DNA of 64,000 nucleotides, taken from NCBI GenBank assembly GCA_905221605.1, contig CAJNDS010000447.1, forward strand, positions 854,657 to 918,656, given 5' to 3'. The notes beneath the pieces were generated by a model. That model was not told the DNA's origin, did not search any database, and saw only the letters and a list, made by a program, of their open reading frames with translations. This document shows positions 10,525 to 37,678 of this stretch, piece by piece. Both the position numbers and the translations under genes were made by a program. Positions within the stretch are counted from its first letter, which is position 1; each line of letters opens with the position of its first letter. This stretch comes from Symbiodinium natans. Its lineage: Eukaryota > Sar > Dinophyceae > Suessiales > Symbiodiniaceae.

Positions 10525-11590
10525 AGTGGCCGGGACGGCACTTGCGGCCGCTGCAACTTCACGGGACTTTCGGGCGCGCTGCAGGTCGAGCAGTTGTATG
10601 CAGAGCGTTTGGAAGGTGCGAGGTCTATGTACCGATTCGGACTCTAACTGGTGAGACTCTCATGGCTTCTGGGCTGATCGGAGTGCGTCTTTCCAAGCAT
10701 ATCACGGCTCGAGGCAGCTGGCGCTGGTCTCGTCTCACCAACATGAGAAACGGTCGAAAACGGTCGAAAACGGCCGAGCACGATTGCGAGTGCTGGAACG
10801 CATCGTTTCTGTATCCCAGAAACTTGCTAGTTGGTCCGTGGCACAGAACTCTTGGCACGTTTTGACACTTCAGGCCACTTTGGGACTTACAAGATTTTGT
10901 TCAGCCGGCGCATTAAAGTCGCGGGAACCAAGCTGCCCGAACCAACATCCATAAGCCTTGCAACGCAAGCCAAAATCGAGAGGTGTCCCATCGCTGCGGC
11001 CTCACCCTGAAGCATTCCCTGTCCGCACAGCGCTACTGACAAGATTGTGACGAAGATGTGACAATTGACTGCCAAGTTCGGTCGGAATGCCAAGGGCAAG
11101 CTTTCGTGCAGATTAATTTGGATGTCACCTTCAAACTTCAACCGGGACGCCTGGCATTTTTCGAGAGGAAAACAGGTGTTTTCTGCGGTCTGCACTCTCA
11201 TGAGAAGCTTCACGGAGGCTCTTGAGTCTTGCTCGATGTAGGTTCGAGTTTGGGCTCTCAGGAGAGGCAAGCCGAGGCACACCACTGCGTGCACGAAATT
11301 CACAGCGGTCGTCAGCCGCGGTTGCATCAGAAATTGCGACCGTCCAGCCTGCCGCGACACATATCAGGCGCTGGGCCCATGGCCAACCCCTGCCGACAGC
11401 GCTCATATGTGCACCGGGGCCTATATCACACAACTTGTATGTACATAATTTTTAAGGTCTTCATCGAGATGGCTTCAAAGTGGACCGATTCATGCTCGGC
11501 TCCCATCTGAAGCTGCATCGGCCAGGCGGGAGAGTGTGCCTCGGCAAGGAAAGTCGTTGAGAAGGTCTCGTGTCGCTACGATCGGCCGGA
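10525..11590. other. Intergenic stretch or unassigned exons
   Basis: Between the helicase and the M20 peptidase. A minus-strand frame at about 10640-10500 (FQTLCIQLLDLQRARKSREV) could belong to the helicase N-terminus, because it lies directly upstream of motif Ia on the same strand. A 157-codon minus-strand frame at 10887-11360 has mixed composition and no recognised domain. No promoter or terminator signals could be identified. Confidence 0.4.
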
Positions 11591-11609
11591 CTTCACAAGC
11601 ATCAAGTGC

Positions 11610-14600
11610 GCGCCACCTGCGATCGCGTCAACTGCTCGTGCCAGAACAGTACGTGACATCCGTTCGTTGGGAAGATGAACGGCATCAGACGCCTGCGACA
11701 AAAAGAAAAAAAGCAGAAGCCCGACGCAATGGGACAACCTGTCCTGACTGAAGGCCATCTGCACCACATCACCTCGGTACAAACTGCTCCCAAGCAGGAT
11801 CAACATGATGGCTCTCCCTTCTGCAAAAATGGACGATTAGAGAAGGCAAGGCGCATCCCAGCTCTGCCTCGAGCAAGGGCAGGATCGCAATTGTTCCTCA
11901 GCCAAATAGGACCCCTGGAAATCCCGAAGTCGGCTGCAATTGAGACTCCTCGGTGTCCTAGGTGGCAAGATGACCCCTACAAGGACTTCATGTCGCTCGC
12001 GCACGCATGCAAATCCAGCGACATGTGAACCCCTTCATCAGTAGCGCATCCTTTCGGGCAGTGCCTTTGATAAGGGGTTAGCGAACTCTACATCCGAAAC
12101 CCTCAACCCTGAGGCACCCCCTTCCCGCACAGCCAGCACCGCCGACTCATCCATCTTCCAGGCCGTGGCCACTGCGGCACGAGCCGCCCGAAACACCTCT
12201 CATGGTTACCAATGAACCCCCCCCCCTCCAACCTTACTTTCACAGCGGGACCTTGCAGGCACACATCAAAGAAGAACGGCGTGTTTACTTGCAGGGGGTC
12301 TTTGCGGAGAGGGTGAGACAGGGGGTGCTCCTTTCCCCAAAGCCCCTCCATGTCGCTGGCCTCGGTTTCGAGTCCCTTAAGTCGAAGCTCACCTTAAGCC
12401 CCGAAACTCCAAGACCCTCTAAGACCCTACAAAACTCAGTTCGAAACCCTACAGAACCTCTCTCAAGACCCTGAAATCTTGTTTCAGGAAGCAGCAGTCC
12501 TACCAGGGCCCCCGGTTGGCCTTCGAAGTTGGCTTCGCCAGCCAAGACTCCTCGTTTGTTTTGGGGCCACTCGCACTTCACCATGTGAAAATATGTGAAA
12601 GCACCCCACTCCGCAGTCACCAGTCGCGGTCTCACCGACATGTCGCCATCACAAGCCGAGCCAGGCAGGTTGTCTAGTCGCCAGCACATCCATCATCGAA
12701 ACATAGGAATAGTGTCAACAGGATGAGAAACTCGAGCCCTCATCAAAGAATGTCTAGCAGCCTAGCTGACACCTCACTTGGGTTTCGGGTTCAGGGCTCA
12801 TACCTCCGTCAAAGTGTCTCATACATCCGCACGAAGAAGCTGGAAGAGCCACTGACCCACTTGTCATGTCAACAGACGTTTGCAGATTGTCAGAGCAGAT
12901 GTCATGGGAGCCCCAAACATTAAAGCGACGACAGAAGGGGACTCCGCGACCCCCGGGAAGGGGAACAACGAAGAGCTACTAAGAGGAAGTACTCGTACAC
13001 TTGTATCATAGCCCGGCGGCCGAGACGGCGAGCTCCGCGATCTCCAGCTTGTTGCAACTGCGGCGCTTCGCAAACCTCTGATACCGCATAGATGATGGAT
13101 ATGAAATACATCTGCCCACTTTTTGTTCGCTTCAGCTGTATCCTAGTTCTGTGTTCCAACTGCACTGCGGCGAGCAGTCGCAACAGGAAACTCTCATGGC
13201 ACCAAGGAACTCATGCTGAAGATGCTGTTTCAGGCAGCTCGCCACATCTTCAGCGCTCTGGCCTGAACGTAGACATAGATCGAGGTTTCTTTGCTTTTTG
13301 CATCGGGCTTTGGGATGTCGCCCTGTCGCCCTTGCATTGCGGCTGGACTTCTGTGCTCCCCTGACACAAGGCCTGGGGTTGTGCGCACCGAAACCACGCA
13401 AGAGGCGCGATTCGCGATGTGCCGGCCATGCAAATGCTTTGGACCTGAGGGTTAAGGGTCAGCAGCCTCGACATTTCCAACTTCCATGCGAGAGCGTTCC
13501 CCACCTTTTCCGATCTCTGTGATGGAAATCGACGGCTGCAGCCACGTTCTCTTGAGTGCTTCCATGCCTCCGGCAAAAAACATACTTCCCGCATGCACCG
13601 AAAAGTGCCTACGAGGGCCCTAAATGTCCGTGCCCCCGTGCAGGCCTGGATTTTGGAAGCTCTGCAGCCATCCAGGTCCAGCTTGGCCATTGGGGAGGCC
13701 CAGCCTCTGGCAGATCTTCTCCACGGACATCCTCACTGCGCGGGGCATCGCACAGAGCATCGCGCCACACGTACAGGTGGGATAGTGGGATAGGGGGGGG
13801 GGGGGGGGGAGTTTCGAGCACTCAGGGCCGAGAGGCTGCTGTCCGGCTGCCGACAGGTTCACAAGGTCCTCCTCGTTGATGTTGCAGAGGCCTCCAGAAG
13901 CTCTCAAGGGCGTACATGTGCATATAGAACTCATGTACAACTCAAAAGACGCGTACAGCGCTTCGTCGCAGAAGGCGCATGACGGCTTAAGTACGTTGCT
14001 GCAAATAGGCGTCTGCTTTAGTCGGTACATATTTAGCTATGTTGGCTTTTTGTTAGTGCTGGTTAAGCTGGCTGCGTCCCGGTTTTGGCTCAAGGCTTAG
14101 AAATGTCGAAAGCCCTGTCTCCCGCAGATGTTCTCTTCTGCCTCTGGCAAAGGAATATATGCGCGGGGCATGTCGTCGGCTAGCGTGACAACACGTCCGT
14201 GAAGTTGTGCATGGACTTTGGTCTTCTTCCTCTCTCAGCTTATTTCTTGCTAGGCGCGGGGCCGAGTTTGTGTGTGTTGGTGTGACTCACGGTACAACAT
14301 GTACGTATACTAGAAACATCGCAGCCGTTACAAGGTGACACAAGGTGCAAGCCGCGGAGTGTAACGCGCCAGATTCGAAATGTGGGAATGTCGTCTGAGC
14401 TGGGCTCCCAGCTCTCTGTAAGCCCAGAGACCGTCGGAGCCCCGGAGGAGTCGGTCAAAGAGGAGATCAGGGCCATGAGGTCAAAGGTCGGCTCCTCAAT
14501 CAAGATGCCCAAATATGCCCAAGCATGAGTCTTGCAAATGGGCACTTGCAAACGGGCACCCCATAGCACTCCCCCCCCCCATTCCGCCACTTCGCCCCAC

Positions 14601-17600
14601 GAAAGAGAATCAAAGGTGTAGATGTTGCGGATTTCTAGTTTCAGTAAGACTTCGCAGACAATACTTTTAAACCTTTTAAACATTATGCATATAACGTCTA
14701 AATCCGACGCCGTATGAAAAGATGCAAACGGGGAGTCCGGATTCCCAATGTTGTCTCCCAGCTTGGATTCTGGGACATATATGTTCACTGTAATTGGTTC
14801 GTAAGTAATTGGTTCAACCCTACGCTGCGGTTATGCAGCTCACATCGTCGCTGGTGTTGCTCTATTTTTCACCGCAGTTTTGAACTTGTTTCAATATGTT
14901 TCAATCACTCCAACTCCAGCTGCACTCATTCCTCCAAAAGCAGTGTTCCGTCAGCGCCGAGTTGCCGGCAACAGCCCGCCGTTCACGCCGCTATGGAGGT
15001 CGCGTTCCCCGCCCTGAATGGCCACCTCCACGTCCAGAACCCCACGCATGCCGTAGCCTGAGATCTCCAGCTGAGTTACAGGGGAAGTCTACGAAGCAGA
15101 CCCCTTCCCTTCTTGTTGCCTGCAAAAATCCTAAACCATGCGGCCACATGCGCCACCTACCGAGGCTCCGGCACAAGCAAGGCCGTTCCTTGGGAGACTC
15201 GCCCTCTGCTGCAGTAGAGAGCGAATGCGGGAATGAGCGATTGCGCTCACTGCTATGATCGGAAGGGTTTCAAGCAACAGCAACGGCCTATAAGAAAACT
15301 AGGCGCAATCAAGGCTCGTCATCTATCCAGGATGAATTGTTGACAATAAGTCCGACAATGTCCCCTCGCAGCCAGCCATCGTTTCTTGCCTCTCGCACCA
15401 CCGCAAGCGTGTCGCTGGGGCAGCCACCTTTCATCGCGACGATTCTCTCTCTAGCTCATCTCACGTCAAACAGCAGCGAAGCAGCTGGTGCTCAGACTAC
15501 GACTTTCCTCGTGAGCATCCACAATGAACAGAACATTCACGGGACAGTCCTCCTCCTGCAAGTGCTCCGTGGCCCGAGGCTGTGCCAAGCATGAACTCTG
15601 CTTTCCACGTGTCATAGACGCGACCGGGCAAGCTGGTTAGCATTTGGCAGTGGCCTGTGCGGTCTCCATGTCAAACCCGGCCAGGCAAAAGTCCGAGGTG
15701 TCGCTCTGCTGCAGCAGCCTCCGAACTGCGAATATCTGCGCCAGCATCGGACCTGTCGGTCCGATTTGCTCCAAATCCCGGTATGGACATTAGGACTGCA
15801 CTACAGGGGGGTAGGCAGATGGCTTTGGCCGGCACCTTTGTTGTCGCTGACGCCACGACCGTAGAAGTAGCCGTCTTCGGCCCGCATAGTCCACGGATCA
15901 GAGGTCCATCCATTCCCAGCTGCAACGACATCATAGTGCGAGTACCTGGCGCTTCTTAGTATCAGTGCAAGAAAAACGCCAAGAGCGCTGCAGCTGCCGA
16001 GAATCACAGAGAGTCCCCCACACTCTCCCACACTTCGGTCGAGGTGCATGATCACCAGAGGTTTGTTCAGGTCCCAGCCACATCTGGCAACGACAGCCCC
16101 GTTGCAGATGCGCACCTTCGGCACTGTTGGCCTACGCTTGCCCCAGGTCGAGATGTGAGAGGGACAAAGCGACAGGGGTAACTGAAAGCTCCGAACCTTA
16201 AACAGCCGCGACTTTCTCACGAACTTCCAAGCGAAAGCCCTAAAGTAGCACAACAACAGACCTCGGAGTCTGAGAAAGTCCCACCGAGTCGCGAGCAGAG
16301 TTGGAAGGCATCCCGAAAGCTGCTGCAAAAGAAAGAACCCCTAAGCCCTTGAATGTTTGAGAATTTCCCGGGCCATTTGGTCGCAGGGGCACCACTCAAA
16401 GCTGGTGCGCACCACACAAAGCTGGCGCCGGGCTATGTTTGGTCACCACACAAAACTAGACAACGCTCGAGCTATTTGGTTGCAGGGCAAGCGTGCTCGC
16501 GGGCCATTTGGTCACAGGGGCAGGGGGGCACACACAAAGTTGGCGCGAGCTATGAAACCACACAAGACACAAGACTAGACAACGCTGGCGAGCTACTTGG
16601 TTGCTATTTGGTCGCAGGGGCACCACACAAAGCTGGCGCGAGCTATTTGCAGGGGGGGGGGGGGGGGACCACACCAAGCTTTATTAAAACTGTCGCAGGG
16701 GGGCGGGGGGGGGGGGCGGCGGGCGGGGGGGGGGGCACCACGCAAAGCTTTATCAAAACTGGGTCGGTGGGGGGGGGGGGGGGGGGGGCGCACCACACAA
16801 AGCTTTACTAAGACCGGCACGAGCTATTTAGTCGCAACGGGGGGCACCGCACCAAGCTTTACTAAAACTGGGGCGAGCTATTTGGTTCATCACACAAAGC
16901 TTTTTGTTTACTGTCGCGAGCTAGTTGGTCGCAGGGGGGGCACCACACCAAGTTTTATTAAACTTACTAAACTGGGGCGAGCTATTTGGTCGCACGGGGG
17001 GCACCACACAAAGCTGTATTAAAACTAGCGCGAGCTAAACTAAGACTGGCGCGAGCAGGGGAGGCACCACACCGAGCTAAGCTTCATCAAAACTGGCGCG
17101 AGCTATTTGGTCGGGGGGGGTGGGGGGGGGGGGGATGTGGTCGCAGGGGAGGCACGACACAAAGCTTTTATAAACCTGCAGACACCTACATTTGCCCGAA
17201 AGCCGCACAGGCGCCGTGGCCCCCAGGAGCTCCTCAAAGCGCCGGGCCAGCCAGGAGGCCGCCTTCTGCATGTCCGGCTCGAGCCGGCCTAGGGCTTCGT
17301 TTCCGGGATTTGCTCGTGTAAGGTGAAGAAGAGCGGTGGATATCAAAAGGAAGAAACAAAGGGGAGTTAAGCAGAGATTTCAAAAGGTTTCTTCTCGTGC
17401 TCTGTGGGGAGGCCGCTGATTGTGCCAGTTGCCTGGTGGGCTTGCAGGATTCTTTAGGCTGAAAGTTGCCGCCGCCCGCAGAACTAGGGGTGGCGGGGTA
17501 GTAATGCTCAAGCGCAGGTGATTTGGCAGGTTTTTTGGAGGGATTCCGAGCACACACTGGTCAGGAGTTTGGGGGAGGGAGGGTCAGAAAAGCTGCAAGT

Positions 17601-20600
17601 GGCTATCACTGGACACCGTTGGGAAGGTGACGAACTCGGCCAACAAGGTGACCAATTTCTGGAACTCAGCCGCATCCTGCAGCGCGCAAGTCCGTGATGC
17701 CAATGTCATCCAGGACCGTCTGCTTGGCATATCTGTGCCTGTGCCTCTGCCTCTGCCTCTGCCTCTGCCTCTGCCGCTGTCTCTGTCTCTGTCTCTGTCT
17801 GTGTCTGTGTCTGTGTCTGTGTCTGTGTCTGTGTCTGTGTCTGTGTCTGTGTCTGTGTCTGTGTCTGTGTCTGTGTCTGTCTGTGTCAGTCTGTTCTTCT
17901 TTCTTCGTTTTGTCTCGCCCCTTCCCCCGATCCGTTCGCGAGCGAAGCGGGGCCTGGAATGGTCTGCCTAAAGCCTTCGGTGTTAGGGGAAGCGAACCGC
18001 TTTCGCTTTCGACACTTTCGAGGTTCCAACTGGTCAAGCACTCCAAGAGCCTCCACGAATCAGACAAGCAAGCATGGCTCCTACCAGGGGTATGGTAAGT
18101 GGCCGGGCCGGTTTAAAATCGAGCTGTGATTGCCCTCAGGGTCCTCGTGGCCGCAGTCCTTCTTCTTGCAGAATCGCCCACAAACGCGGCTGGGCGGGGA
18201 CGTGAGTGGCCTGGACGTCCTGGTGCCCGTGCTTACGTCAAGGTAGGCGGCATGGATGGTGCCTGGGATCCCACAGCCAGGGTTCCGTTTGCGCGATGCT
18301 GCCACTGCAGGCCACAAGATGCCGTAAGCTCAGGACCGGAGTTGCAGCCGCCGATTACAACCCGAAGGGAGTAGCGTCCAGCCGACACTGTCGATGACAG
18401 CCTCCAAAACTTCTGGCAGCGCCCTCATGTCCAAGATTTTCCACTACCCGGAGCTGAACCCTAGGGTTTATGGTTACAAACCTAAGTTCCCGAAGCCGCC
18501 ATCCTCCCCCCAGACCACCTCATCCCGAGGGGGGAGACAGCCGCACAGCAGTTCGAGGTCGTAGCCAGCTCCCGGAGCAGCGTGGAGCGCTCCGCATCCC
18601 AGAGCCGGAGGGTTCCCACGGCGTCCCCTGCGACTTTGGGGAAAGAAGCCTATTGCAAGGAAGAAGCGTACCCCAACAAGTGCCCATAATTAGAATCCCA
18701 CATATGCGTCGTCCAGAGTCGTGCTTTACAAGATTGGCCTTGGGGGGCTTGCCAGGGTGGCGCTAGCTGGACTTCACTGGGCCTGAGATGACAACCGGCG
18801 GGCCCTCGCAGATGAGCCCCTGGTCCCCCAGCGTGGCCAAAGCCAGGATGGCTGCAGAGCAGCCGCCACGGCCTGTGGCAACGTCTGCTTTCTTGGATTA
18901 ACATGGCCCCCGCGCCACAAACAGCCCAGCCTGAGCCGAGAACAGCTTTGCTGCCGTGCTGAACTGAAGCGGCATCCCACACGCGAATTCGCCCATAGGC
19001 ATCTCCAGAGTAGAGGGCCTCAAAGTTCTTTCAAGTCTCGGCCCAGCACGAACACAAGAGGTAACAGGCCTTTGAAGTGGCGCAGGCGGCCAAAGCCAGG
19101 ACGGGCCCGCCATGATTGAAGCAGCACACGGCCTGACCAGCGAGGGACAGGAGACAGGCCATCCGGAATTGAAAAAAGCAACAACACTACGACTGATCAT
19201 GATGTATTTGCAATTATTTGCAGTTTACAAGAAATAACAATAACAATACTAATGCGAAAAATAATGAGCCCAGCCTACCATAGTAGCAACAGCAGCAAGA
19301 TCGGCATTCATAACAATAGTTCCATCCGCTCGTGCCTTGCCCTTGTCCCAGAAGACGATGCGGCCATCCCCACCGCCAGATGCCACGACGCCACTCAGCG
19401 GCTCCTGGGCCACGCAGTGCACGAAGCCCATGTGCCGGTGCTGGCACGTCTGCAGGAGCTCAAGGAGGCTGTGGTGACCTCAACACCGTTGTTCATCGCA
19501 AAAGGCCACCCTGGAGCCCGGTGAAATCTACTCATCACCCCCCCCCGGGCAGCAACGGAGGGAGTCACTTTGGGACGACCCCGGCAGTAGCGAAAAAGCA
19601 AACCTCGTCTCTCACGGAAGCAGAACCTGTCGCACTCAGAATGCTGCGTGCATCTCACTTTGAAACTTCACAGGAATATAAGCCGGCCGAATGAGCAGCA
19701 GCGAAGCAGCGAAGGGGCGCAATCATGTGAACCCGGCAAAGGACTCACAGGAGCAAAGGCGACACCGTCGCCCACAGAAAGGAACGGAGCCAAGGGCAGG
19801 GGGAGCACGGCAGGACTTACGACATTCAGCATCTGGGTGTCTGCCAGGTGGCTGAACTTGCTGGGCCCACCGGGACCTGGGGGAGTACACGGCTTCTTCT
19901 TGGCCAGGTCGATGTTGAAGGTGTAGTGCCTGGAAGTCTTGCAGAATCTTGTAGAAAATTGTGTAGAAAGGGAACAGAGAGAGGACGGAGGCCAAGCTGT
20001 GGGACGAGCCTGGTGGTTCGGGTCCGGGTCTTTGCCTGCAGCAGCTTCACCCACCCATCCAGTAAGCGGAGACAGAACAGGTTGGTGCTCTGAAAGCCCA
20101 AGAACACCTCAGCACCACGCGACCCCTTGCATAGTTTTGTCGGCATAGTGTGGATTTGATACTTCCAAGTGCAGTTCCAAGTTGCCGTTTGCAAGCTGCC
20201 GGCGATGCTCAGGAGGTGTCCCTGATTGGGTGCGAAATGGAAGCCTCGAAGCATCTCGAAGCATCTCAGACACATGACTACGCGCGAATGCGGCCCAACT
20301 GCATTCAGGGTGCAGAAAAGGCAGGGCACGCTCGTCTCATCATCACAGGGCTCCTTGACCAAAAAAACTATCGTACTCATGTGTCAAAAAGCAATTTCTG
20401 CATGACATAAAAGGCCAGGCCAGACGTGGGCTTAATGTGCGCAACTTGCGACAGGCGCCTTGGCCTGGAGCAGGCTGGTCACATCCCACACGCGCAGTTC
20501 GTTGATGGACGTGGAGAGCAGCCTCAGAATGGCGCAGGTCAAGGGAAGAACCTGGAAGAACTGCATGCTGCCTAAGTTGAAGCCCATTTGAAGACAACAT

Positions 20601-20794
20601 TTGATGCCGGGGCGCAGGTCCAAGGTGGCTGCCTTTGGCACGCGAGAGGCCAGTATCTCGTTGTCGTTCAATTTCAGCTTGGCCACACCTGCCCCAAATC
20701 ACAGCACTTGGAGATGCGAACCAACATCGCGCAACAGCAGGACACAGCACAGGTGCGCTTGATTGGATCGAAAACAAGCGCGGGAGAGAGAGAC

Positions 20795-20825
<31 letters not shown>

Positions 20826-21847
20826 GGGAGAGACAGAGAAAAAGAGAGACAGAAAGAGAGAGACAGACAGAGAGAGACAGACAGAAAGTGAGACAGAAAG
20901 TGTGCGGGAAAGTGAGAGGGAGAGAAGAAACCAGATCGGAAATCTGCAAGGGGACGAAGGTTAGGGTTCCAAAGCGTGTGAGAACAATTCAGTAGCTTCC
21001 GCACTACTTGTGAGCAAGCAGAAGCAAAACCCGCGAGCAGAAGGCCCGGCCGAAACGAAACCAAGGTGCATGCTACAGCGCTCGGTTTAAGCGAGCTGGG
21101 AACAGGGCGTCAAGAGTCAGGGGATGCGTCAGAAGAGCAACCCGGGAGAGAGGGAGGGAGACATGGACAGAGGGCTGCGATGCATGAGTACGGGCCTTGT
21201 GCGGCCGCCATGGCACGGCCCTGCCTTGTGTGGCAGGCAAGCATGGGAAGAGTCGGAGTGCCATACAGCAAAAGCCTTCGGATGCCTTACGCGCGTGTCT
21301 GTTGCTTCCGAGAAGCAAGTCCTCCGAGCGCGCGCGGAGGACACCGAAGGGCGACGGCTCAAGTTCCGTCGGAGTTCGCGGCGACGCCAGTGCGCTCTCC
21401 GCGGGGCTGCCCAAACTTTCCTTGGATGCATTCAGGGACACGTCGTAACGCGAAGCCCTGCTGCCTTCTGCAGGCCTTCCGGACTTAACGTCGCCTGCCG
21501 AGCATCCAGTGGCGACTCGTCACCACGATGCGACGAGCTCGGAGTGTCCTTCTGGCGGAGCTACCCCAACATCCAACAGCTAAGTCAGGGTGGCAGGAGC
21601 TGACGCTCAGCTGCTGGCGCTCTCTTTCGGGATGAAGAGCCTCAAATGTGCCGGTGGGCCGGCAATGCCGCTGCTCAACATCACTAAGTAAAACATCACT
21701 GCGGCAACTACGAAAATTCCGGGAACAACCTATAACAGCACTCAGCCCCCAGCATTGACAGCACCGGTCCACTGGCTTGGCTGTGATGCCGTACAGCCAA
21801 CGCTTGGCCTACATGAAGACGGCCCCGGGATATCGCAACAACAACGT

Positions 21848-21901
<54 letters not shown>

Positions 21902-22090
21902 CAACAGCAAGGCGGCATGATGTCTTCGACGCCCTCGTTTGCACTACACACACTCACAAAAACCAAGCCTTCATCACTGTCGAAAAAACGCAGGGCCCCG
22001 TCCATGGAGCCAGCCACAAAGAGGCTATCCGACAGGGGCGCCAAGCAGTTCACATCCCCAGAATCTGAAGTGGCAGTGATTGACATCCAG
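11610..22090 (-). CDS. Dug2-like protein: WD40 repeats followed by M20 metallopeptidase
   Basis: WD40 exons come first: about 22090-21925 (LFVAGSMDGALRFFDSDEG), 20560-20430 (INELRVWDV), 20115-20030, 19435-19260 (VVASGGGDGRIVFWDKGKA) and 18640-18530 (GTLRLWDAERS). M20 exons follow: 17687-17605 (LLAEFVTFPTVSSDS), 17300-17195 (QKAASWLARRFEELLGA), 16125-16045 (VVARCGWDLNKPLV), 15955-15835 (YSHYDVVAAGNGW to GRGVSDNKG), 15595-15500 (NVLFIVDAHEES), 15400-15308 (GLIVNNSSWIDDEP), 15062-14985 (YGMRGVLDVEVAIQGG, then LHSGVNGG), 14520-14405 (IEEPTFDLMALISSLTDS), 12200-12110 (AVATAWKMDESAVLAVREGG) and 11722-11610 (ASDAVHLPNERM). The metal ligands His of SHYD, Asp of VSDNKG and His of AVHLPNE, and the EE pair of the catalytic loop, are visible. 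The last exon follows a clear polypyrimidine tract and CAG. WD40 plus M20 is the architecture of yeast Dug2, a cytosolic subunit of the glutathione-degrading complex. It could also be a relative acting on other gamma-glutamyl or dipeptide substrates. Exons between 14.4 and 12.2 kb are unresolved. Confidence 0.82.
16357..17170. repeat. G-run-rich tandem repeat in an intron of the M20 gene
   Basis: About 14 diverged copies of a 40-70-base unit containing CGAGCTATTTGGTCGCAGGG, then CACCACACAAAGCTTTA and TAAAACTGG. Many copies carry runs of 9-19 G, for example near 16652, 16710, 16770 and 17115. It lies between the M20 exons at 17300-17195 and 16125-16045, so it is intronic. The plus strand is the non-template strand of that gene's antisense. 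Confidence 0.88.
17735..17895. repeat. CTGCCT/CTGTGT hexamer microsatellite
   Basis: (CTGCCT)n, then (CTGTCT)n, then about 20 copies of (CTGTGT). It lies just upstream of the first M20 exon on the minus strand, in the interval between the WD40 and M20 exons, so it is probably intronic. Confidence 0.92.
20785..20905. repeat. GA-rich microsatellite
   Basis: (GA)n interrupted by ACAGA and AAAGA units. It lies between WD40 exons of the minus-strand gene, so it is probably intronic. Confidence 0.9.
21849..21912. repeat. CAG/CAA trinucleotide repeat next to a WD40 exon
   Basis: About 20 CAG/CAA triplets. On the minus strand the WD40 exon frame would run into poly-Cys (TGC), which is unlikely protein, so the exon probably ends before 21915 and the repeat starts the intron. 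The plus-strand poly-Gln frame has no other support. Confidence 0.88.
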
Positions 22091-22916
22091 ATGTCCTCGA
22101 AGCATGACACAATGCAAAGGTTGCGAGGGATCCCTGCCTACAGGTCCTACAGGTATGAGTTTATGTGACAGGCCCTACCCCTGGCTACACCATGGTGAGC
22201 TGCCCCGTCTTCACCCGACGTGTTCACCCCACCCATGCTTGGAAATGTTCTGGTCGCTCTGCTTCACTGGACCCATTCGGACCCATGCCTATCTGAGGTT
22301 GAGACCCCAATCAGTTTGAACCTTATCCTATCTGAGTGTCTTGACCGTCGATAACGGCCCAACTCTCCTGATGGGTGTCCGGGATCTCGCTCCTGAGGTG
22401 TTTCTTGTCAGTCGATGCAAACGTGGCGTTGACCCCGGAATGCAGACAAGTTGCGCAGCTTCCGGCGATTCGCCAACCAGTAGGTTCTTGGCGGCTTTTG
22501 GCGCTGATTCGACGCCTGTTTTGTGCTTACATTAGCTTCTGGATGTTTCGGGCGGTCAAGGTTCACATCATTCTGCCGAGATGCCCGTGAGAGCACTCAG
22601 ACCAACTACCGGCCCACATTTCAGCGGAAACATCAATGTGTCAATCGCCTGGCCTCAGCTCAAGCTAGAGTCGCGTCAACACCAGTGGAAACTGAAAGCA
22701 AAGCATGGGCAAAGTCACAGCGCGAACCTGGGTCACGTTTCCCCCCGGGACGGCCCGAAAAAGCGGGCCACAACAGGTGAACAAATATGACTTTTACATC
22801 ACCTCATCGGTGATGAGCATGTGTGTCCACGTACGTCCGTATGTCGTGCAGACGTTTCTGATCGGTTGGGGCTCTGGATTCTTGACGCGAAGCGTTCACA
22901 CAACTCTTGCCATGCT

Positions 22917-25323
22917 ATGGCACAACACACCTGGTATGCTGAGCTGAGCTGCCCTCCCCACGCGTGCGCCCGCAAAGGACGATGCTGTTCGGCGCGATTG
23001 GCAGCCACTCTTCCCGGATGTGTGTCAGAGGCTCAGATGAAAGAATTGCAGTGCAGCTCGTGATGTCGGCCTGAGCTATGTGGCGTGAGGGTTGACGCGA
23101 CCAACGCATCACGAGTGCTGAGGCAGCAACGCCCTTCTTCATGCGGTAGGTTTGAGGGTCGTCATGCGAAGCCACCCACCGTGAGCCGACACCTCTGTCC
23201 AGCAGACCAAATGCAATTCCACATGACAGCTCAGAGCTCAGGACGCCATGATACGCATGATACGCCATGGCACTCAGATACAAGGTGGCCCCCAGTGGCT
23301 GCTCCTCGCCCTCCTGCGTCTCTGCTGGGGCGGTTCCGTAGCGACAGGCCACGATGCGCTGGCCATCCTCGGCGCCGAAAACGCGACCAGCCAACAAGCC
23401 ATTGTTTGGCGGGCAGTTCGACTAAACAGCGGTATGCACGGGTGATCGCCACACTCACGGGCCCATCTTGACCAAGGTGCCGTCACCATCAGGTTCAACA
23501 GTGACTCCTCAGGGCTCGAAACCCCGAGAGAAACCCATGAATCATGAATCAGCTCTCACCCTCCAACACTGCCTCGGGCCCATATTCTGCCGCAGCTTGG
23601 GTCAGCCGAAGGACGGTCCTGCCAAAGGATGGCAGATCCGCGTTTGTTTGGCAACTCGCAGAATCGGTTTCCTACTTCCTGTTTTGCAGATTTCAACACT
23701 CTAGAGTGGACTTGGGTCGAAACACGGAACTGAACCCTTGTTGTCAATCCGTTTAACGCGCGTGTCTCCTGGATAAGGCACCGCAGAGCTGGTCGGCCGT
23801 GTGCTCCGCGGTTGCATCCTGCTCGCTTCTCACCCCCAGCTCTGTCAAGAAGATGCCGAAGGCAACCTCCGAACCACTTCGTCATTGGTGGTGCTACATT
23901 GTGCGCTCTCGAGTGGCAGCCGAAGCTAGTTTTATGTGGGGCATGAGGCAGGAGCATCCCCACAGTAACAAATAAAAATGCCGCTGCCACAGCAGTCAGA
24001 AGTGGCGAAGGCACCCTTGTACCAAAACCAACCAAGCTGCGACAGAGTCGATGCACGAGTGGTCCAGCGTGACGCTAAAGGCATACCTCACACCAGAGCA
24101 AGCAGTGGCAGCCGGAGCTACAGCTTGAGCTTGGAAAGTTGAGGAAGGCCGGAAAGCATAAACAGAAGCCAGCTAAGCAAGAGGAGGTGCTCATTCAACC
24201 CCGCCAGAAGTTGCCGCCGGATCTGAGAAAAATTCCCGACCAGGCCGTTGTGGGCAAACAGGAATCCTCGGGTGCGCAGCAGGAAAGGCAGTTGGATGCA
24301 CAAGGATAAAGTCATCTTGGCCCCCTTTGTGGAGGAAAGCGGGGCTAGTTACACCAAGATGCGTCCGGCTTTGAATGGATGGCATGCAGCCTCGTTGACA
24401 CTGGACGACCTGGGAATGCTCGGAGAAAGAGCAGCAGGCAATGACGATGGGCATACATGACGCAAGGCTGGCTGGCAGATCCGCGTTCGGCATGTGACCA
24501 AGGTTGCTGCGGACCCGCAGCGCGGATGTGCGCAAAGATGAGGGGCGATCGCACCTCAGCCCAAGGCCGCGTGCAGAAGAGCTTCAAACATCTACAAGGG
24601 TGCAATAGCAACAGCATCAAAACAGCAGCACTGCAGCAGCTAATCAATCGCACTTAAGAATGGCACCTCTTCAGAGAGGTTGCGAAGATTTGGATCGTTC
24701 CAGGCCTCAGCTGTCAGTTTCTTTACGAAAAAGCCTAAAGTGTTACTGCGCAACTCTGGCTACAAATCCGACAGTCAAGTCCTGCAATGCCATCAAGAGG
24801 CCGGCTTCAGTGATGTAAACACGCAGGGTAGCGGAGCTTGTTGAGCGTACCACCCGACACCAAAGCCATCTGCATTCCTCAGCACAACGATGTGGAGCAC
24901 TCCTGTCACACGGGCCACAAAGCCAGACAACTGCTGTTGATCAGACGCGGATCAGGCAAGGCTGCTGATATGCCATGCCTCAGCACTGCTTGTGGTCCGC
25001 AAGAACGTAGTCTTGACAACATGATTGCACCACTGCTTCTTCCTGCTAATCGTGAAAGGTGCTCGGCGACACCCCCTGTGGCAACGCACGGCGCTCTCTT
25101 GCTGCATAGCTCTGATGGACCAAGGACATGCGCGGTCGAAGCAGAATATCTGCCAAGAGCACCTTAAAGTGCCGCATGGTGCCGCGCTTTATCGCGAAAA
25201 GCTTCTGACGGACCAGACTTATGAGTGGGTCGTGGGCTCACGATTTGCAAAACTCCTAATGTCACTTCGGCTGTGCTCCCAAGGCACATTGTCATCTGAG
25301 ATGAGGGCGCACATACGGCACAT
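22917..25323 (-). CDS. Dug3-like class II glutamine amidotransferase domain
   Basis: An ATG at 25323-25321 opens MCRMCALISDDN. Class II amidotransferases of this type begin Met-Cys-Arg, and after Met removal the Cys is the N-terminal nucleophile. Later exons follow in family order: about 25180-25058 (VLLADILLRPRMSLVHQSY), 24560-24513 (EVRSPLIFAHIRAAG), 24291-24187 (RGFLFAHNGLVGNFSQIRRQ, the HNG motif), 23390-23272 (GQRIVACRYGTAP, then GATLYLS), 23190-23128 (GSRWVASHDDPQTYRMKKG) and 23067-22930 (TAILSSEPLTHIREEWLPIA, then PNSIVL). In fungi Dug3 pairs with Dug2 to hydrolyse the gamma-glutamyl bond of glutathione in the cytosol. The frame ends at a TAG (22917-22915). Just before it is an AG/GTGTGT donor-like site, so it may end here or splice on into the WD40 exons 0.8 kb downstream. 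The exon carrying the usual NGDGFG loop was not found. Confidence 0.8.
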
Positions 25324-31458: not shown

Positions 31459-32303
31459 ACACGGGGCGTCTCGGCCCGCTCCCCCTTCCAGGGCCTCCCG
31501 GCACCGGCCTGCCAAATCGGGCGCACGAGCTCGCATGACCGGCAGCGCGTCTGCCCACGCAGCCCAGTACGCGGCCGGGGCTGTGCGTTGCGCGGATTGG
31601 AGGCCGAGTCCGCCGAGCACTGCTGGCAGCGTGGCTATGGGCCACGCGTGGGGCGCGTCGTCAAGGGGCTCTCCTCCACCCTCGTGACTCGGACGGGGGC
31701 AGCGTGCGGAGCGCATGGTTGGCACGAGTGGAGGCACACATGGAGAGGAGGAGCCAACTGCACTGCAGGTCGGTGCGCTCCGCCGCCCATGCTCGCACGA
31801 ACTCGGGGTGTCCGATGGGACTACCCAGGATCAGCAGGCCTCTCTCAGGCGGTGGCTTGTCCCCTCGCCACACCGCGGCCCCCAGCTCGGGGATGCCGGC
31901 CGGCGGGGGGGTCTCTCCCAGCGTGAACGTCCTGGTTTTGCCGAGGTTGGAAGCGATGCCACAGTGGGTCTCGACTGTTGTCGTCGTGCTGTCCAGGGCC
32001 GCCCGCGCAAGCTTTGGGACTGTGACGACATAGAGGTCGTCCAGGAAGGCTAGCAAGGCATCGTCGCGGTGCAGCTTGGCCGCGGCTTGGCAGAGCGCCT
32101 CGTGTTGCCCCAGCGCGAACAGCGCCGGAGCAAGGGGATCGCCCTGCACGCAGCCTTCGCCTTGCGGCACGGTCCGGCACGCCCCCGTGGCGTCCCACCA
32201 GCAGTAGCTGGAGGGCTGGCCATAAAAGAGCCGCACGAAGGGGAGGAGCTCCGGCGCAACCTCACGTAGCTTGCTGAGGAAGGCTACGCGGGACATGGAG
32301 TCA
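31459..32303 (-). pseudogene. Reverse transcriptase core fragment of the split LINE
   Basis: The minus-strand frame from 32296 gives fingers/palm sequence: FVRLFYGQPSSYCWWD, VQGDPLAPALFALGQHEAL (QGDPL box) and LLAFLDDLYVV, where FLDD replaces the usual YADD of LINE reverse transcriptases. It then gives SNLGKTRTF and GLLILGSPIGHPEF. Past about 31660 the frame changes and continues with LGGLGLQSAQRTAPAAYW. Reverse transcriptases of this group copy RNA at a nicked target site. The core is intact here but is separated from the N-terminal part by the 380-bp transposon. Confidence 0.8.
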
Positions 32304-32305
32304 TA

Positions 32306-32685
32306 CTTGGAGGTTCATGGGACTTAATAACCACTTATGACTGGGCGTATAACCCTACTTATAACACCTCTAAAGGGCCTTATGGGGGTTCTCCGAATTA
32401 TAAGGGCGAGAAGGTGGTGGAGCGTGCTGTCGGTCGCTGTGCAAGCGGCCGTCGGCACCACTGCCCTTGGCCAGGCGCCCTGCGTCTCGGCAGGCTCGGA
32501 CTCCACGCCGCTGCCGCTGGACCGAATCCTGGAGCCGGGCGTAACAGCGGCAACTAGCCGCCTGCCCATGCGGCCTTGAGACACGAGTCGGCGTCGGAGA
32601 AAAGGAGCGTTTAAAAAAATAATAATAAGGATCGAGGGTTATAAGCCCAGTTATAAGTGGTTATTAAGTCCCATGAACCTCCAAG
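32306..32685. mobile_element. 380-bp inverted-repeat transposon (MITE-like) flanked by TA
   Basis: Terminal inverted repeats of 51 bases (32306-32356 and 32635-32685) begin CTTGGAGGTTCATGGGACTT and differ at two positions. TA dinucleotides flank both sides (32304-32305 and 32686-32687). Removing the element and one TA restores a continuous codon run Ser-Ala-Tyr-Asp-Ser in the surrounding RT gene, so the insertion site is proven by the sequence. A TA target suggests movement by a Tc1/mariner-type transposase, but no transposase is encoded. The interior holds a LINE 3' fragment (next entry). Confidence 0.95.
32405..32628 (+). pseudogene. LINE 3' fragment carried inside the MITE
   Basis: The plus-strand frame reads RARRWWSVLSVAVQAAVGTT, then PLPLDRIL, and ends SRLPMRP-stop. 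It matches the C-terminus of the LINE copy at 29.3-29.5 kb (ARRWWSMLPVAVQQAVASTA, ending SRLPLRP-stop). The stop is followed by GGAGAAAAGGAGCG and an A-rich tail at 32612-32628, resembling the 3' ends at 28.6 and 29.25 kb. Orientation is opposite to the LINE that hosts the MITE. Confidence 0.85.
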
Positions 32686-34250: not shown

Positions 34251-37200
34251 TCATAGCTGCAAGCCCGCCAACAAGTTGCGAGCAATCTGGCAGATGGCTG
34301 CCACATAGTGGACATGAGCATTGACAGATGAACGACTGTTCAGAACCAAGCTGGGGTCAAAGATCCAGCGAAGCAACTCATCATCTCCAAACTGAGGAAC
34401 GCGCTGTAACCCCAGACGAGTGAGCCAGTGACGCCGTTGCGAGGCCAGCAATGGACAAGCTCGAATTGCGTGAAGCAGGTTGCACTGGTCACCACAAAGG
34501 CACAGAGAGTCCGTCCTGTGCGAATGACGGGCGCTCCTACCATCCGTAAATGGGTGATGGCCACACCGGGCCAGGGTCCACTCTCGGACTGCGGAGATGG
34601 GGAGCCCGGAGGAGTGTATGCTGACCAGGCAATGCAATCGAGGCTGATAGACCGCATAATTGGCCAGCGAAGGTACTGCCAGCAATTCTGCGCGGTAACT
34701 CGCATGGGCACGTTGCTGCAAGGTCTGTACAACCTGATGCCTAGTCCACTGCCAGACACGTCGAAGACCCGATCCCGGGAGCACCCCGTACGATGCCGGA
34801 GACATGACGCCATCCTGATGCAAGGTCTGGGCGGTCTCATATGCCCAAGAGCCTGGTCGACTCAGGGCAAAATTGAAGACGCGTGCTGCCAAGCCTCTGC
34901 GGACGTCGCGCGTGCTTGTGGCAGAAAGTCTGCCAAAAAGACCAAACTGCAGGCGCTTAACCTGAAACAGAAAGGGTGCCCAGCCAAGCTCACCAAGGAC
35001 TGCTGCCCCCGGTGCACCACTGGGCCATTGCAGCAAACGTCTCCCCCACTGGCGGATGACCTTGTCCAAGCGAGCAATCGTCGCTGAATCAAGGAACTGT
35101 GTGCCATACAGCGTGGAAGGCAAAACATAGGTTTGGAATAGAGCATTGCGGAATCCTGTGTGTAGCTGGCGATTCTCGGCCCAACCCAAAAACTGGTAAA
35201 AGCGGCGAGTACTTTTAACTATGAGCCGAGTCTCATGTTGACGCCATTTTCGAGAGGCTGCGAATGTAACACCCAGGTAGGTGTAGTGTGGCACGCACGG
35301 GACGGCACAACCCTGCAAGGAAAAGTGGAAGTTCAGGAGCCTGGACCCAACAACCATCACAGCTGTTTTTTCGGGACCAATCCCAAAAGAGAAACGCCAC
35401 CGTGCGCCCCAGTTGCCGATAGCATCTAAGGCACGTTGCAAGGTCGCTGCATCATCTGCCAAGATTACCAGATCATCAGCGTACAGAAGAAGTGTCACGC
35501 GAGGGGCGCTTGGGCCAGGGCCCAACGCAACGCCCGGACATACTGCACGCACAGCATCGGCAATACCATTGAACAAGATGTTGAAAAGCAGCGGACCTAA
35601 GACGCTCCCTTGACGCACGCCGGCCGTTTCTGTCCAAGGCTGCGAAGTCAGACCATTCACACGGACTCGAGCTGTGGTTTCACAAAGGAGGTCTGCAATT
35701 ACCGACCACATCGAACCACTAACGCCGGTCTCCGCAAGCCTAACTAACACCGCATCCCTCCATGCAACATCAAAAGCTTTGCGTACATCCACGAAAGCAC
35801 AGAAGGTACGCTTCCTGGCACGCAGCCTGAGCGTCTCGGCCAAGGTGTAGATTTGCTCCTCGGCCCCCCAGCGAAACCCGGCTTGACACTCATCGAGTTG
35901 CGGGTCGACCCTGGGAAGCAGCCGCGCCAGCAACAAACGCTCGAAGATTTTGAGGCTGCAACAAAGGAGGCTGATGGGACGATAATTATTGAAATCGTCA
36001 GCAGGGCCGCCTTTGTGCAGCGGGCTCACACGGGCTGAACGCCAAATCGACGGGACAACTGCCCAATGACGCACCAATTCAAAAAACGTCAAAAGAGCCG
36101 AAGAAAGGACATCGTCCTTGACAGCAAAAAACTCATATGGCAATCCATCCGGGCCTGGAGCTCGATGAGACGGAAGCTGAGATAGAACATGCTGCAGTTC
36201 GGCAGCGCTGAGCGGAAGATCCAAAGGGCCGGACAGAGAGGCCATATCCCGCCTCAGAGCCGCAGCGCGGGACGTGATGTCTGAGGATGCTGCAGCCGAA
36301 GCAGAATCAGTTGCTACGTCAGCCCGGAGCCGGCCATCGCAAACAGATGGCACATTGCGAAAGTGATCACGCCATGCGGCGAAACATTGGTCACCTTCCA
36401 ACCGATGGCCCGCCGATCTCATCGAACGCGGCAGGCCACCGTGACTCTGGCCCATCTGCGTACGCACATTACGAGCAGCCAACCGCGGATTGGACCGTGA
36501 CAGACCTTCTTGTCGACTGAGCCAGGAAGACCAAAATGACGATTTCTTGCGACGAACCAGATGATGAAACTCCAGTCGTTTCTGGCGGAAGGTTTCACGG
36601 GCACTGGACGTCTGCTCACGTCGCCACTGTCGCCAAGCCGCATTGCGAGCGACAAGGAGTTCGTAGCAAGCGTCATCCCACCAATCCGGCTGCGGACGCC
36701 GGTTGCCACCAGAACGACTAGAAGCGTGGGGCTCTGCGGCTTGCCAAACTATAGCGACAAATTCGGCATACAGCAGGTCCAGCACGCCACGCCTTTCAGG
36801 AAGGGGGAGGGGCTGACCCTGACGCAAATTCAAAACCTTGGATGCCCATTGCAACAGTTGCGGATGCAAATCTTGGACGACTGAGTGCCAGTTCCGCACA
36901 CGCGGCCAGGGCTTAGGAACAACATCATCCGCCTCCGGAGGCACAGCAATTTTGAAGGTGATGAGCTTGTGATCGCTTCCCACAATCGGGTGACACGAGT
37001 CACGTTGACAACCGCACGTGTCCCCATCATGCACGACAATGTCAACAACATCAAGCGGACGTGAAACAAGAACAATGTCAATGCACGAGCCGGACCTATG
37101 CGTAGAGACGCGTGGTGGATTTGCAATGCGGAGACCAAAATCATGACAAAGGGCGCGTATCAAATCACGCAGCTGGGGTTCATTAGACCTTTCACGCTCG

Positions 37201-37676
37201 GGGCCCATAACTTCCGCAAGATACACGTTGCAATCACCTGCAAGCACCAGATTCGCATGAGGGTGGTGCCGCAAAGCGTCCTGAATGGAGGCACGAAACC
37301 TACTCCAGAAGTCGATGCGTGTGGGAAGCGGCACACCCACGTGCGGCGCATAAAAACTACACAGCAAAAGCGCGGGAGCATTTTGAGATGACGCAATGCA
37401 TCGCCAACGAATGCGATGGTAAGAAGTGTCTACATTGAGTGACCACGATGTGGAACCTTGATGAACAAGAAAGCCTGCCTCACAGCCACCAATATCAGAA
37501 GGGCCATCATACTGATACGGCTGATCGACTGGCAAGGCGCCCCCATTGACTGCCCAAGTTTCTTGTAGGCACACGCAATCCACGTCATGAGCACGCAAGA
37601 TTCCAACAAACCCATGAAAACCCGCATGCTCTGATCCACTGGGCGCCCAAAAGCGATTGGCGTTCAGTAAAGCCAC
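34251..37676 (-). CDS. LINE ORF2: AP-type endonuclease and reverse transcriptase
   Basis: The 1141-residue frame has an N-terminal exonuclease-endonuclease-phosphatase domain: LNANRF at 4-9, CLQETW with catalytic E39, GDCN at 147-150 and SDH at 234-236. The reverse transcriptase follows: APGPDGLPYEFF at 506-517, NYRPISLL at 564-571, FVDVRKAFD at 628-636 with D630, RQGSVLGPLLFN at 688-699, YADD at 732-735 and YLGVTF at 800-805. A C-terminal Cys/His knuckle has C1059, C1061, C1065, H1069 and C1074. All catalytic residues are present and there is no internal stop, so it may be active or recently so. The first codon of the frame after the ORF1 stop is GTG, not ATG. The first in-frame ATG is codon 157, inside the endonuclease, so initiation must be unusual. 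The enzyme nicks DNA and copies its own RNA at the break. Confidence 0.93.
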   Translation of the reverse strand: MALLNANRFWAPSGSEHAGFHGFVGILRAHDVDCVCLQETWAVNGGALPVDQPYQYDGPSDIGGCEAGFLVHQGSTSWSLNVDTSYHRIRWRCIASSQNAPALLLCSFYAPHVGVPLPTRIDFWSRFRASIQDALRHHPHANLVLAGDCNVYLAEVMGPERERSNEPQLRDLIRALCHDFGLRIANPPRVSTHRSGSCIDIVLVSRPLDVVDIVVHDGDTCGCQRDSCHPIVGSDHKLITFKIAVPPEADDVVPKPWPRVRNWHSVVQDLHPQLLQWASKVLNLRQGQPLPLPERRGVLDLLYAEFVAIVWQAAEPHASSRSGGNRRPQPDWWDDACYELLVARNAAWRQWRREQTSSARETFRQKRLEFHHLVRRKKSSFWSSWLSRQEGLSRSNPRLAARNVRTQMGQSHGGLPRSMRSAGHRLEGDQCFAAWRDHFRNVPSVCDGRLRADVATDSASAAASSDITSRAAALRRDMASLSGPLDLPLSAAELQHVLSQLPSHRAPGPDGLPYEFFAVKDDVLSSALLTFFELVRHWAVVPSIWRSARVSPLHKGGPADDFNNYRPISLLCCSLKIFERLLLARLLPRVDPQLDECQAGFRWGAEEQIYTLAETLRLRARKRTFCAFVDVRKAFDVAWRDAVLVRLAETGVSGSMWSVIADLLCETTARVRVNGLTSQPWTETAGVRQGSVLGPLLFNILFNGIADAVRAVCPGVALGPGPSAPRVTLLLYADDLVILADDAATLQRALDAIGNWGARWRFSFGIGPEKTAVMVVGSRLLNFHFSLQGCAVPCVPHYTYLGVTFAASRKWRQHETRLIVKSTRRFYQFLGWAENRQLHTGFRNALFQTYVLPSTLYGTQFLDSATIARLDKVIRQWGRRLLQWPSGAPGAAVLGELGWAPFLFQVKRLQFGLFGRLSATSTRDVRRGLAARVFNFALSRPGSWAYETAQTLHQDGVMSPASYGVLPGSGLRRVWQWTRHQVVQTLQQRAHASYRAELLAVPSLANYAVYQPRLHCLVSIHSSGLPISAVREWTLARCGHHPFTDGRSARHSHRTDSLCLCGDQCNLLHAIRACPLLASQRRHWLTRLGLQRVPQFGDDELLRWIFDPSLVLNSRSSVNAHVHYVAAICQIARNLLAGLQL

Positions 37677-37678
37677 GC

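Follow-up and report, generated by a model that had tools for sequence, protein, structure and literature searches.

A fused Dug3-Dug2 type gene in the dinoflagellate Symbiodinium natans, with relatives in other alveolates and in red and green algae

The 64,000-nucleotide stretch of Symbiodinium natans DNA analysed here (contig CAJNDS010000447.1, positions 854,657 to 918,656; hereafter the window) contains on its minus strand a gene whose predicted protein joins, in this order, a class II glutamine amidotransferase domain resembling Dug3, a WD40 β-propeller and an M20 peptidase-like domain, the latter two making up a Dug2 half. An initial annotation of this DNA, made from its letters alone, had listed these domains as a co-linear series and raised a possible Dug3-Dug2 fusion. 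The series stands, but its 3' end does not lie at 11610, because the gene ends at 11490. The minus strand was read over 27500-11000 and translated over 26000-10800. The motifs that were read in the series are present there, with MCRMC at 25323, LHSGVNGG at 14998-14975 and HLPNER at 11677-11660. NSSWIDDE is found in the genomic frame at 15338-15315, and in the spliced model its final E is supplied by the next exon. The exon with PNSIVLCGR ends at 22953, and the FVAGSMDG exon occupies 22095-21969.

The gene was modelled by dynamic programming as a spliced alignment of the window (25400-11400, minus strand) with P0001, a protein of 1332 residues from Symbiodinium sp. CCMP2592 that is named "DUG2" and is the closest relative found. 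The model has 60 exons and 59 introns, with 0 frameshifts and 0 internal stops, and 1195 of 1330 aligned residues (89.8%) are identical. The aligned part of the window comprises 1334 residues, and the frame continues for five more to a TGA stop, giving a protein of 1339 residues. The alignment score is 5460, whereas the controls reach 256 (protein reversed), 252.5 (opposite strand) and 247 (one shuffled protein). When other relatives were used as queries, the introns in common with the P0001 alignment were 50 of 56 for P0003 and 50 of 57 for P0002; for more distant relatives they were 38 of 56 for P0008 (53.7% identity), 36 of 55 for P0010 (52.7%) and 23 of 50 for P0013 (38.5%). Exons 13, 14, 15, 16 and 19 are the same with P0001, P0002 and P0003, whereas linker exons 17 and 18 differ: with P0002 or P0003 the end of exon 17 moves to 22467 and exon 18 falls elsewhere. 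The features are collected in Table 1.

Table 1. Parts of the fused gene, in window coordinates
Feature	Position	Strand	Basis and remarks
Entire Dug3-Dug2 type fused gene, start to stop codon	11490..25323	minus	60 exons, 1339 residues; P0001 spliced alignment
Exons 1-15, Dug3-like class II glutamine amidotransferase, MCR start, residues 1 to ~305	22953..25323	minus	GATase_4 above cut-off
Exon 15, end of amidotransferase and start of linker	23070-22953	minus	Spliced alignment
Intron 15, holding TAG 22917-22915; donor AGG/GCAGCT, acceptor GCTGAG/GCC	22654..22952	minus	Same intron with P0001, P0002, P0003 and P0008
Linker exons 16 (22653-22585), 17 (22515-22455) and 18 (22392-22368)	22368..22653	minus	Exon 16 conserved; borders of 17 and 18 less certain
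Exons 19-38, WD40 β-propeller region; borders of exons 23-25 weakly fixed	18144..22095	minus	Spliced alignment, Pfam, P0104 model
Exons 39-60, M20 peptidase-like domain with M20_dimer insert; TGA stop 11492-11490	11490..17676	minus	Spliced alignment, Pfam

The junction between the amidotransferase and the WD40 region is open throughout. P0001 reads across it as ...PNSIVLCGRTRGEG-QAIDTLMFPLKCGPVVGLSALTGVESAPKATKNILLGESQEGLNEIPDTHQ-DIWMSITATTDSGDVNCLATLSDSLFVAGSMDG..., and the same stretch is continuous in P0007, which its record name identifies as a transcript open reading frame. In the window, the linker GQAIDTLMFPLKCGPVVGLSALTG / VESAPKAAKNLLVGESPEAA / EIPDTHQ matches P0001 in order and phase and lies mostly in the three linker exons. 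The test set in advance for a fusion was a protein of a related species that spans both halves, and P0001 and P0007 are two such proteins. The yeast arrangement of two polypeptides is not what is found, as one gene stays open through the junction and the relatives are single chains. We regard the Dug3-Dug2 fusion as near certain. The details of the junction are different from those first proposed. The TAG at 22917-22915 is indeed intronic, although the AG/GTGTGT beside it is not the donor that is used. Splicing of the PNSIVL exon straight onto the FVAGSMDG exon was rejected, because linker exons 16-18 intervene.

On the spliced window protein, Pfam totals exceed the curated cut-offs for GATase_4 (36.3 bits, cut-off 23), WD40 (44.8, cut-off 27), Peptidase_M20 (55.5, cut-off 24.6) and M20_dimer (25.0, cut-off 21), and GATase_6 (23.5) stays under its cut-off of 27. 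The WD40 score is a sum, no single repeat alone having an E value below 0.001. The WD40 region thus precedes an M20 domain with a dimerisation insert, as defines Dug2, and the N-terminal MCR with Cys at position 2, heading a class II amidotransferase domain, has the features of Dug3. A predicted monomer model of the relative P0104 (mean predicted local distance difference test score 87.9, predicted template modelling score 0.83) shows one propeller over residues 366-722, and its fold matches Dug1 and carnosinases in rows that span the propeller and M20 parts. The fold comparison covered mainly these two parts, and the amidotransferase is assigned from its sequence.

Most splice donors of the gene are not GT. 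A model restricted to GT donors was rejected, as it required 3 frameshifts and scored 4154.5 against 5460; GC and GA donors are therefore needed. When any donor dinucleotide was allowed at equal cost, the 59 introns had GC in 39 cases, GT in 13 and GA in 7, so that 46 of 59 are GC or GA. In this model, which gives a small bonus for a G after the acceptor, every one of the 59 introns ends in AG with G as the next base. Without that bonus, and with GT, GC and GA equal, 58 introns were obtained (GC 37, GT 13, GA 8), and G follows the acceptor in 56. According to the excerpted text of a review, GC and GA donors make up 25-74% in Symbiodiniaceae (PMC11453091). A frameshift at the DGTLVKMG stretch (23484-23461) was also considered and rejected, since in the spliced model exon 12 ends with ACG and is followed by a GC donor. 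The longest intron (17214-16116, 1099 bases) consists of degenerate repeats of a unit with AGCTCGCGCCAGTTTT and TTTGTGTGGTGCCCC, and an (ACAGAC)-like tandem array, also intron-borne, lies at about 17890-17730. A CTG run at 21909-21848, which could be read as poly-Cys or poly-Ala, is intronic in the spliced model.

Relatives with the same architecture were found by searching about 5.8 billion proteins. The first query was a rough 913-residue concatenation of exon peptides, checked against the DNA; search words came from the amidotransferase part only, and the whole query set the candidate lengths. Sixteen proteins matched, 13 of which have 1211-1541 residues and combine an amidotransferase (by profile) with WD40 and M20 domains (by Pfam). 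Those named are from Symbiodinium sp. CCMP2592, Effrenium voratum (two), Prorocentrum cordatum and the gregarine Blabericola migrator; the Prorocentrum cordatum protein has 999 residues and an M20 domain that is cut short. P0008 and P0013 are, like P0007, transcript reading frames by record name. Six further relatives, on the dinoflagellate side of the tree, come from contigs of mRNA size, with coding residues and contig bases of 1307 and 4219 (P0002), 1302 and 4325 (P0003), 1297 and 4088 (P0004), 1289 and 4111 (P0005), 1362 and 4597 (P0006) and 1462 and 4426 (P0010), compared with 13.8 kilobases and 59 introns for the window gene.

A second search, started from the amidotransferase region of P0015, yielded 93 proteins. 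Pooling both searches, 105 of 108 distinct proteins match both the amidotransferase and the M20 profile; P0014, P0056 and P0074 are without an M20 match, and in several others among the 105 the M20 match is confined to a short stretch (e.g. P0030, P0063, P0098, P0100 and P0103). Both searches demanded long amidotransferase proteins, and these counts show existence and range rather than the frequency of separate genes. Named holders of the fused form include dinoflagellates (Symbiodinium, Effrenium, Prorocentrum), other alveolates (the apicomplexan Eimeria brunetti, the gregarine Blabericola and the chromerids Chromera and Vitrella), red algae (Gracilaria, Agarophyton, Porphyridium, Cyanidium) and greens (Chlorella, Volvox, Scenedesmus, Raphidocelis, Cymbomonas, Elliptochloris, Chlamydomonas eustigma, a pedinophyte and Closterium). 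In the choanoflagellate Salpingoeca rosetta, the amidotransferase and WD40 region are accompanied by 46 residues matching M20. A third search used a 609-residue composite query, and 120 of its 4469 matches were listed, a number that may miss fused or unfused forms in other groups. The named fungal proteins among these 120 contain M20, in most cases preceded by a long stretch with WD40, and an amidotransferase profile match was not found in them. Nannochloropsis has separate records for the amidotransferase (P0111, 349 residues, marked partial) and for M20 (P0114, 804 residues). Judged from these protein records, the architecture is far wider than a local event, and the enzyme described as fungal is likely to be much more widespread.

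The same three domains, a class II amidotransferase with an N-terminal Cys and a WD40 region followed by M20, occur in the yeast (Dug2p-Dug3p)2 complex. There they are divided between two genes and two chains, whereas the protein described here, known from sequence, is a single chain that begins with the amidotransferase and has a linker of about 60 residues. Yeast Dug2p, as Kaur reportedly found in 2012, binds Dug3p through its WD40 region and dimerises through M20. We propose that the fused protein is probably a single-chain Dug3-Dug2 glutathione amidohydrolase, with the propeller as scaffold and M20 as a pseudo-peptidase domain. After removal of Met1, Cys2 would attack the γ-glutamyl carbonyl of glutathione and Cys-Gly would leave; the γ-glutamyl thioester would then be hydrolysed to glutamate or handed to an amino acid. 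The propeller would hold the amidotransferase, the M20 domain, inactive as a peptidase, would be a scaffold for dimerisation, and a separate dipeptidase would cut Cys-Gly. One chain, ordered as amidotransferase (Dug3), linker, WD40 propeller and M20 (Dug2), would thus do the job of the yeast complex. We infer glutathione as substrate from yeast, and the dimerisation and scaffold roles likewise by analogy. Because the nucleophile is residue 2, the amidotransferase must be N-terminal in a fusion, and the order found fits. Of the 93 amidotransferase rows, 21 are cut; the remaining 72 cover position 2, and 71 of them have Cys. The N, G, H, R and D active-site positions are near-invariant among the fused relatives.

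It is possible, though unlikely, that the fused chain acts on another γ-glutamyl compound, as does the bacterial amidohydrolase EgtC of ergothioneine synthesis, or mainly transfers γ-glutamyl. The substrate of EgtC is a γ-glutamyl hercynylcysteine sulfoxide. By sequence, the closest solved amidotransferases are 3mdn (E 2.6e-24), which has the same residues as the fused proteins at aligned active-site positions, and EgtC (E 4.9e-10), and neither is named as a glutathione enzyme. EgtC and the bacterial class II amidohydrolases (4zfj, 3mdn) share the amidotransferase domain but are stand-alone enzymes, and we know of no WD40 or M20 partner of EgtC. In the fused proteins, by contrast, the partner domains are those of Dug2, and the amidotransferase of P0001 is 33% identical over 328 columns to the free-standing Dug3-like P0140. 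As to transfer, the yeast complex itself also moves γ-glutamyl to valine and Val-Gly, according to the excerpted text of PMC6508711.

We consider it improbable that M20 itself hydrolyses Cys-Gly, in which case one chain would carry out both steps and a separate Dug1 would be unnecessary. Residues are numbered here after CN2, with roles that we take to be those of metal ligands and of a catalytic glutamate (E166). The window protein does retain the equivalents of H99, D132, E166, E167 and H445, that is, four of the five metal-ligand positions and the catalytic glutamate, and the predicted fold of P0104 matches Dug1 and carnosinases, as noted above. The set of metal ligands that defines Dug1 and the carnosinases is incomplete, however, since the window protein has N (VNNSSW) at the position of D195. 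In 98 fused proteins this position is N in 94, S in 3 and D in 1 (P0060), whereas it is D in all three solved dipeptidases (CN1, CN2 and Dug1), which are also without WD40 and amidotransferase domains. The replacement in 97 of 98 argues, at the level of sequence, against an active dipeptidase. E166 is likewise not E in 47 of the 98. Yeast Dug2p is also said, from the work of Kaur in 2012, to be without peptidase activity. Unfused WD40+M20 proteins, with a long stretch before M20 and fungal ones among them, show the same replacement (N 58, S 5, L 1, n=64), as do proteins in which M20 is preceded by a short stretch (N 33, D 1, n=34); this pattern fits a change of the metal site before fused and unfused forms parted. 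The other positions are well kept in the fused proteins (H99 in 98, D132 in 97, E167 in 97 and H445 in 93 of 98), which weighs against a simple story of decay. The catalytic glutamate is kept in 63 of 64 WD40+M20 proteins compared with 51 of 98 fused ones. It is G in 40 of the 98 (e.g. P0015), and the peptidase site has therefore changed further in some lineages.

A pseudogene in the window, with the functional fused gene elsewhere in the genome, is very improbable: a retroelement and repeats lie nearby, but the 1339 codons are free of frameshifts and stops, and P0001, with its 89.8% identity, belongs to a different strain or species. Two adjacent head-to-tail genes, trans-spliced apart to give Dug3 and Dug2 chains, are scarcely credible, for although the TAG is in frame, some 0.86 kilobases separate the last amidotransferase exon from the first WD40 exon and some dinoflagellate tandem genes are co-transcribed and then trans-spliced into separate mRNAs (PMC11453091, as excerpted), the intervening linker exons are in phase and match the relatives, whose transcript-derived members are single reading frames.

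Several points count against the single-chain glutathione amidohydrolase that we prefer. The window gene is known from genomic DNA, and the proteins and transcripts that support it are those of relatives. P0008 aligns only with one stop and P0010 only with one frameshift, and the borders of linker exons 17-18 and of exons 23-25 are only loosely placed. In its best alignment with a fungal WD40+M20 protein, P0001 shows no more than 24% identity across 855 columns, beginning within the WD40 region. Residual hydrolase activity is conceivable, as the remaining metal-ligand positions of the M20 domain are kept and so, in the window, is the catalytic glutamate. The enzymatic activity of the fused proteins is a prediction by analogy.

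Elsewhere in the window, an open frame of 1182 residues (34254-37799, minus strand) belongs to a retroelement of the long interspersed nuclear element type, with matches to Exo_endo_phos (35.4 bits) and RVT_1 (106 bits). A second, partial RVT_1 match (31664-32314, minus strand, 23.6 bits) is below the cut-off. About 400 bases upstream of the start of the fused gene lies a fragment with DEAD/DEAH helicase motif I (AREDVMVCSQTGSGKT; 25802-25728, minus strand), which at 21.2 bits is below the cut-off of 26.

The two halves of the fused protein share their history. Across 93 proteins, amidotransferase and M20 distances correlate with r = 0.948; none of 1000 permutations was as high, and none was above 0.096. 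The named alveolates form one clade in both domain trees (support 1.0 and 0.996), as do the named greens (0.79 and 0.969), in each case with no other named groups inside. The correlation and the agreement of clades indicate that the halves have travelled together. On the origin of the fused form the trees differ. The fused P0086 is placed at the base of Corallochytrium and fungi by FastTree (support 0.77) and on the fused side by a mixture-model tree (support 82, with the fork drawn open), in which 4 changes of the fused label are needed and at least 3 are forced by starred branches. Since a protein that is certainly a fungal Dug3 was not found among the matches listed (120 of 4469), the amidotransferase tree leaves the polarity unsettled, and fission in fungi and fusion elsewhere both stand, with fungi and Corallochytrium having either lost or never had the fusion. 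Tentatively, and with rather more doubt than confidence, eukaryotes may ancestrally have had the single chain, and alveolates, red algae, green algae and at least one choanoflagellate may have received it by vertical descent; the yeast two-gene complex would then be a derived fungal split, and the pathway an old, general eukaryotic route of glutathione turnover rather than a fungal invention.

The excerpted text of PMC6508711 describes the yeast Dug complex as cleaving glutathione to glutamate and Cys-Gly, with the ability to transfer γ-glutamyl, and calls this alternative glutathione pathway fungal-specific. PMC9012958, as excerpted, also states that it is specific to fungi and cites Kaur 2012. 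Its occurrence outside fungi has been suggested before, because PMC6351624, in its excerpted text, reports a Euglena contig that encodes an orthologue or orthologues of glutathione degradosome proteins, without specifying which. On the fused Dug3-Dug2 form no paper was found in the open-licence literature, judged by titles and the beginnings of abstracts, and the excerpted texts of PMC12653102 and PMC10853773 do not mention it. The protein itself is already in databases. P0001 and entries such as 'Glutamine amidotransferase type-2 domain-containing protein' (Effrenium, Prorocentrum) have the same fused architecture and are named after the Dug2 half or after one domain; the names as displayed, some of them cut off, do not state the fusion.

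The fused gene offers natural evidence that Dug2 and Dug3 act as one enzyme in a 1:1 ratio, and it provides one chain to express and solve where yeast requires two. It would extend a glutathione-degrading enzyme that has been called fungus-specific to dinoflagellates, in a family of coral symbionts, and to apicomplexans and algae. With this wider spread, the recycling of sulfur and glutathione in those groups becomes directly testable.

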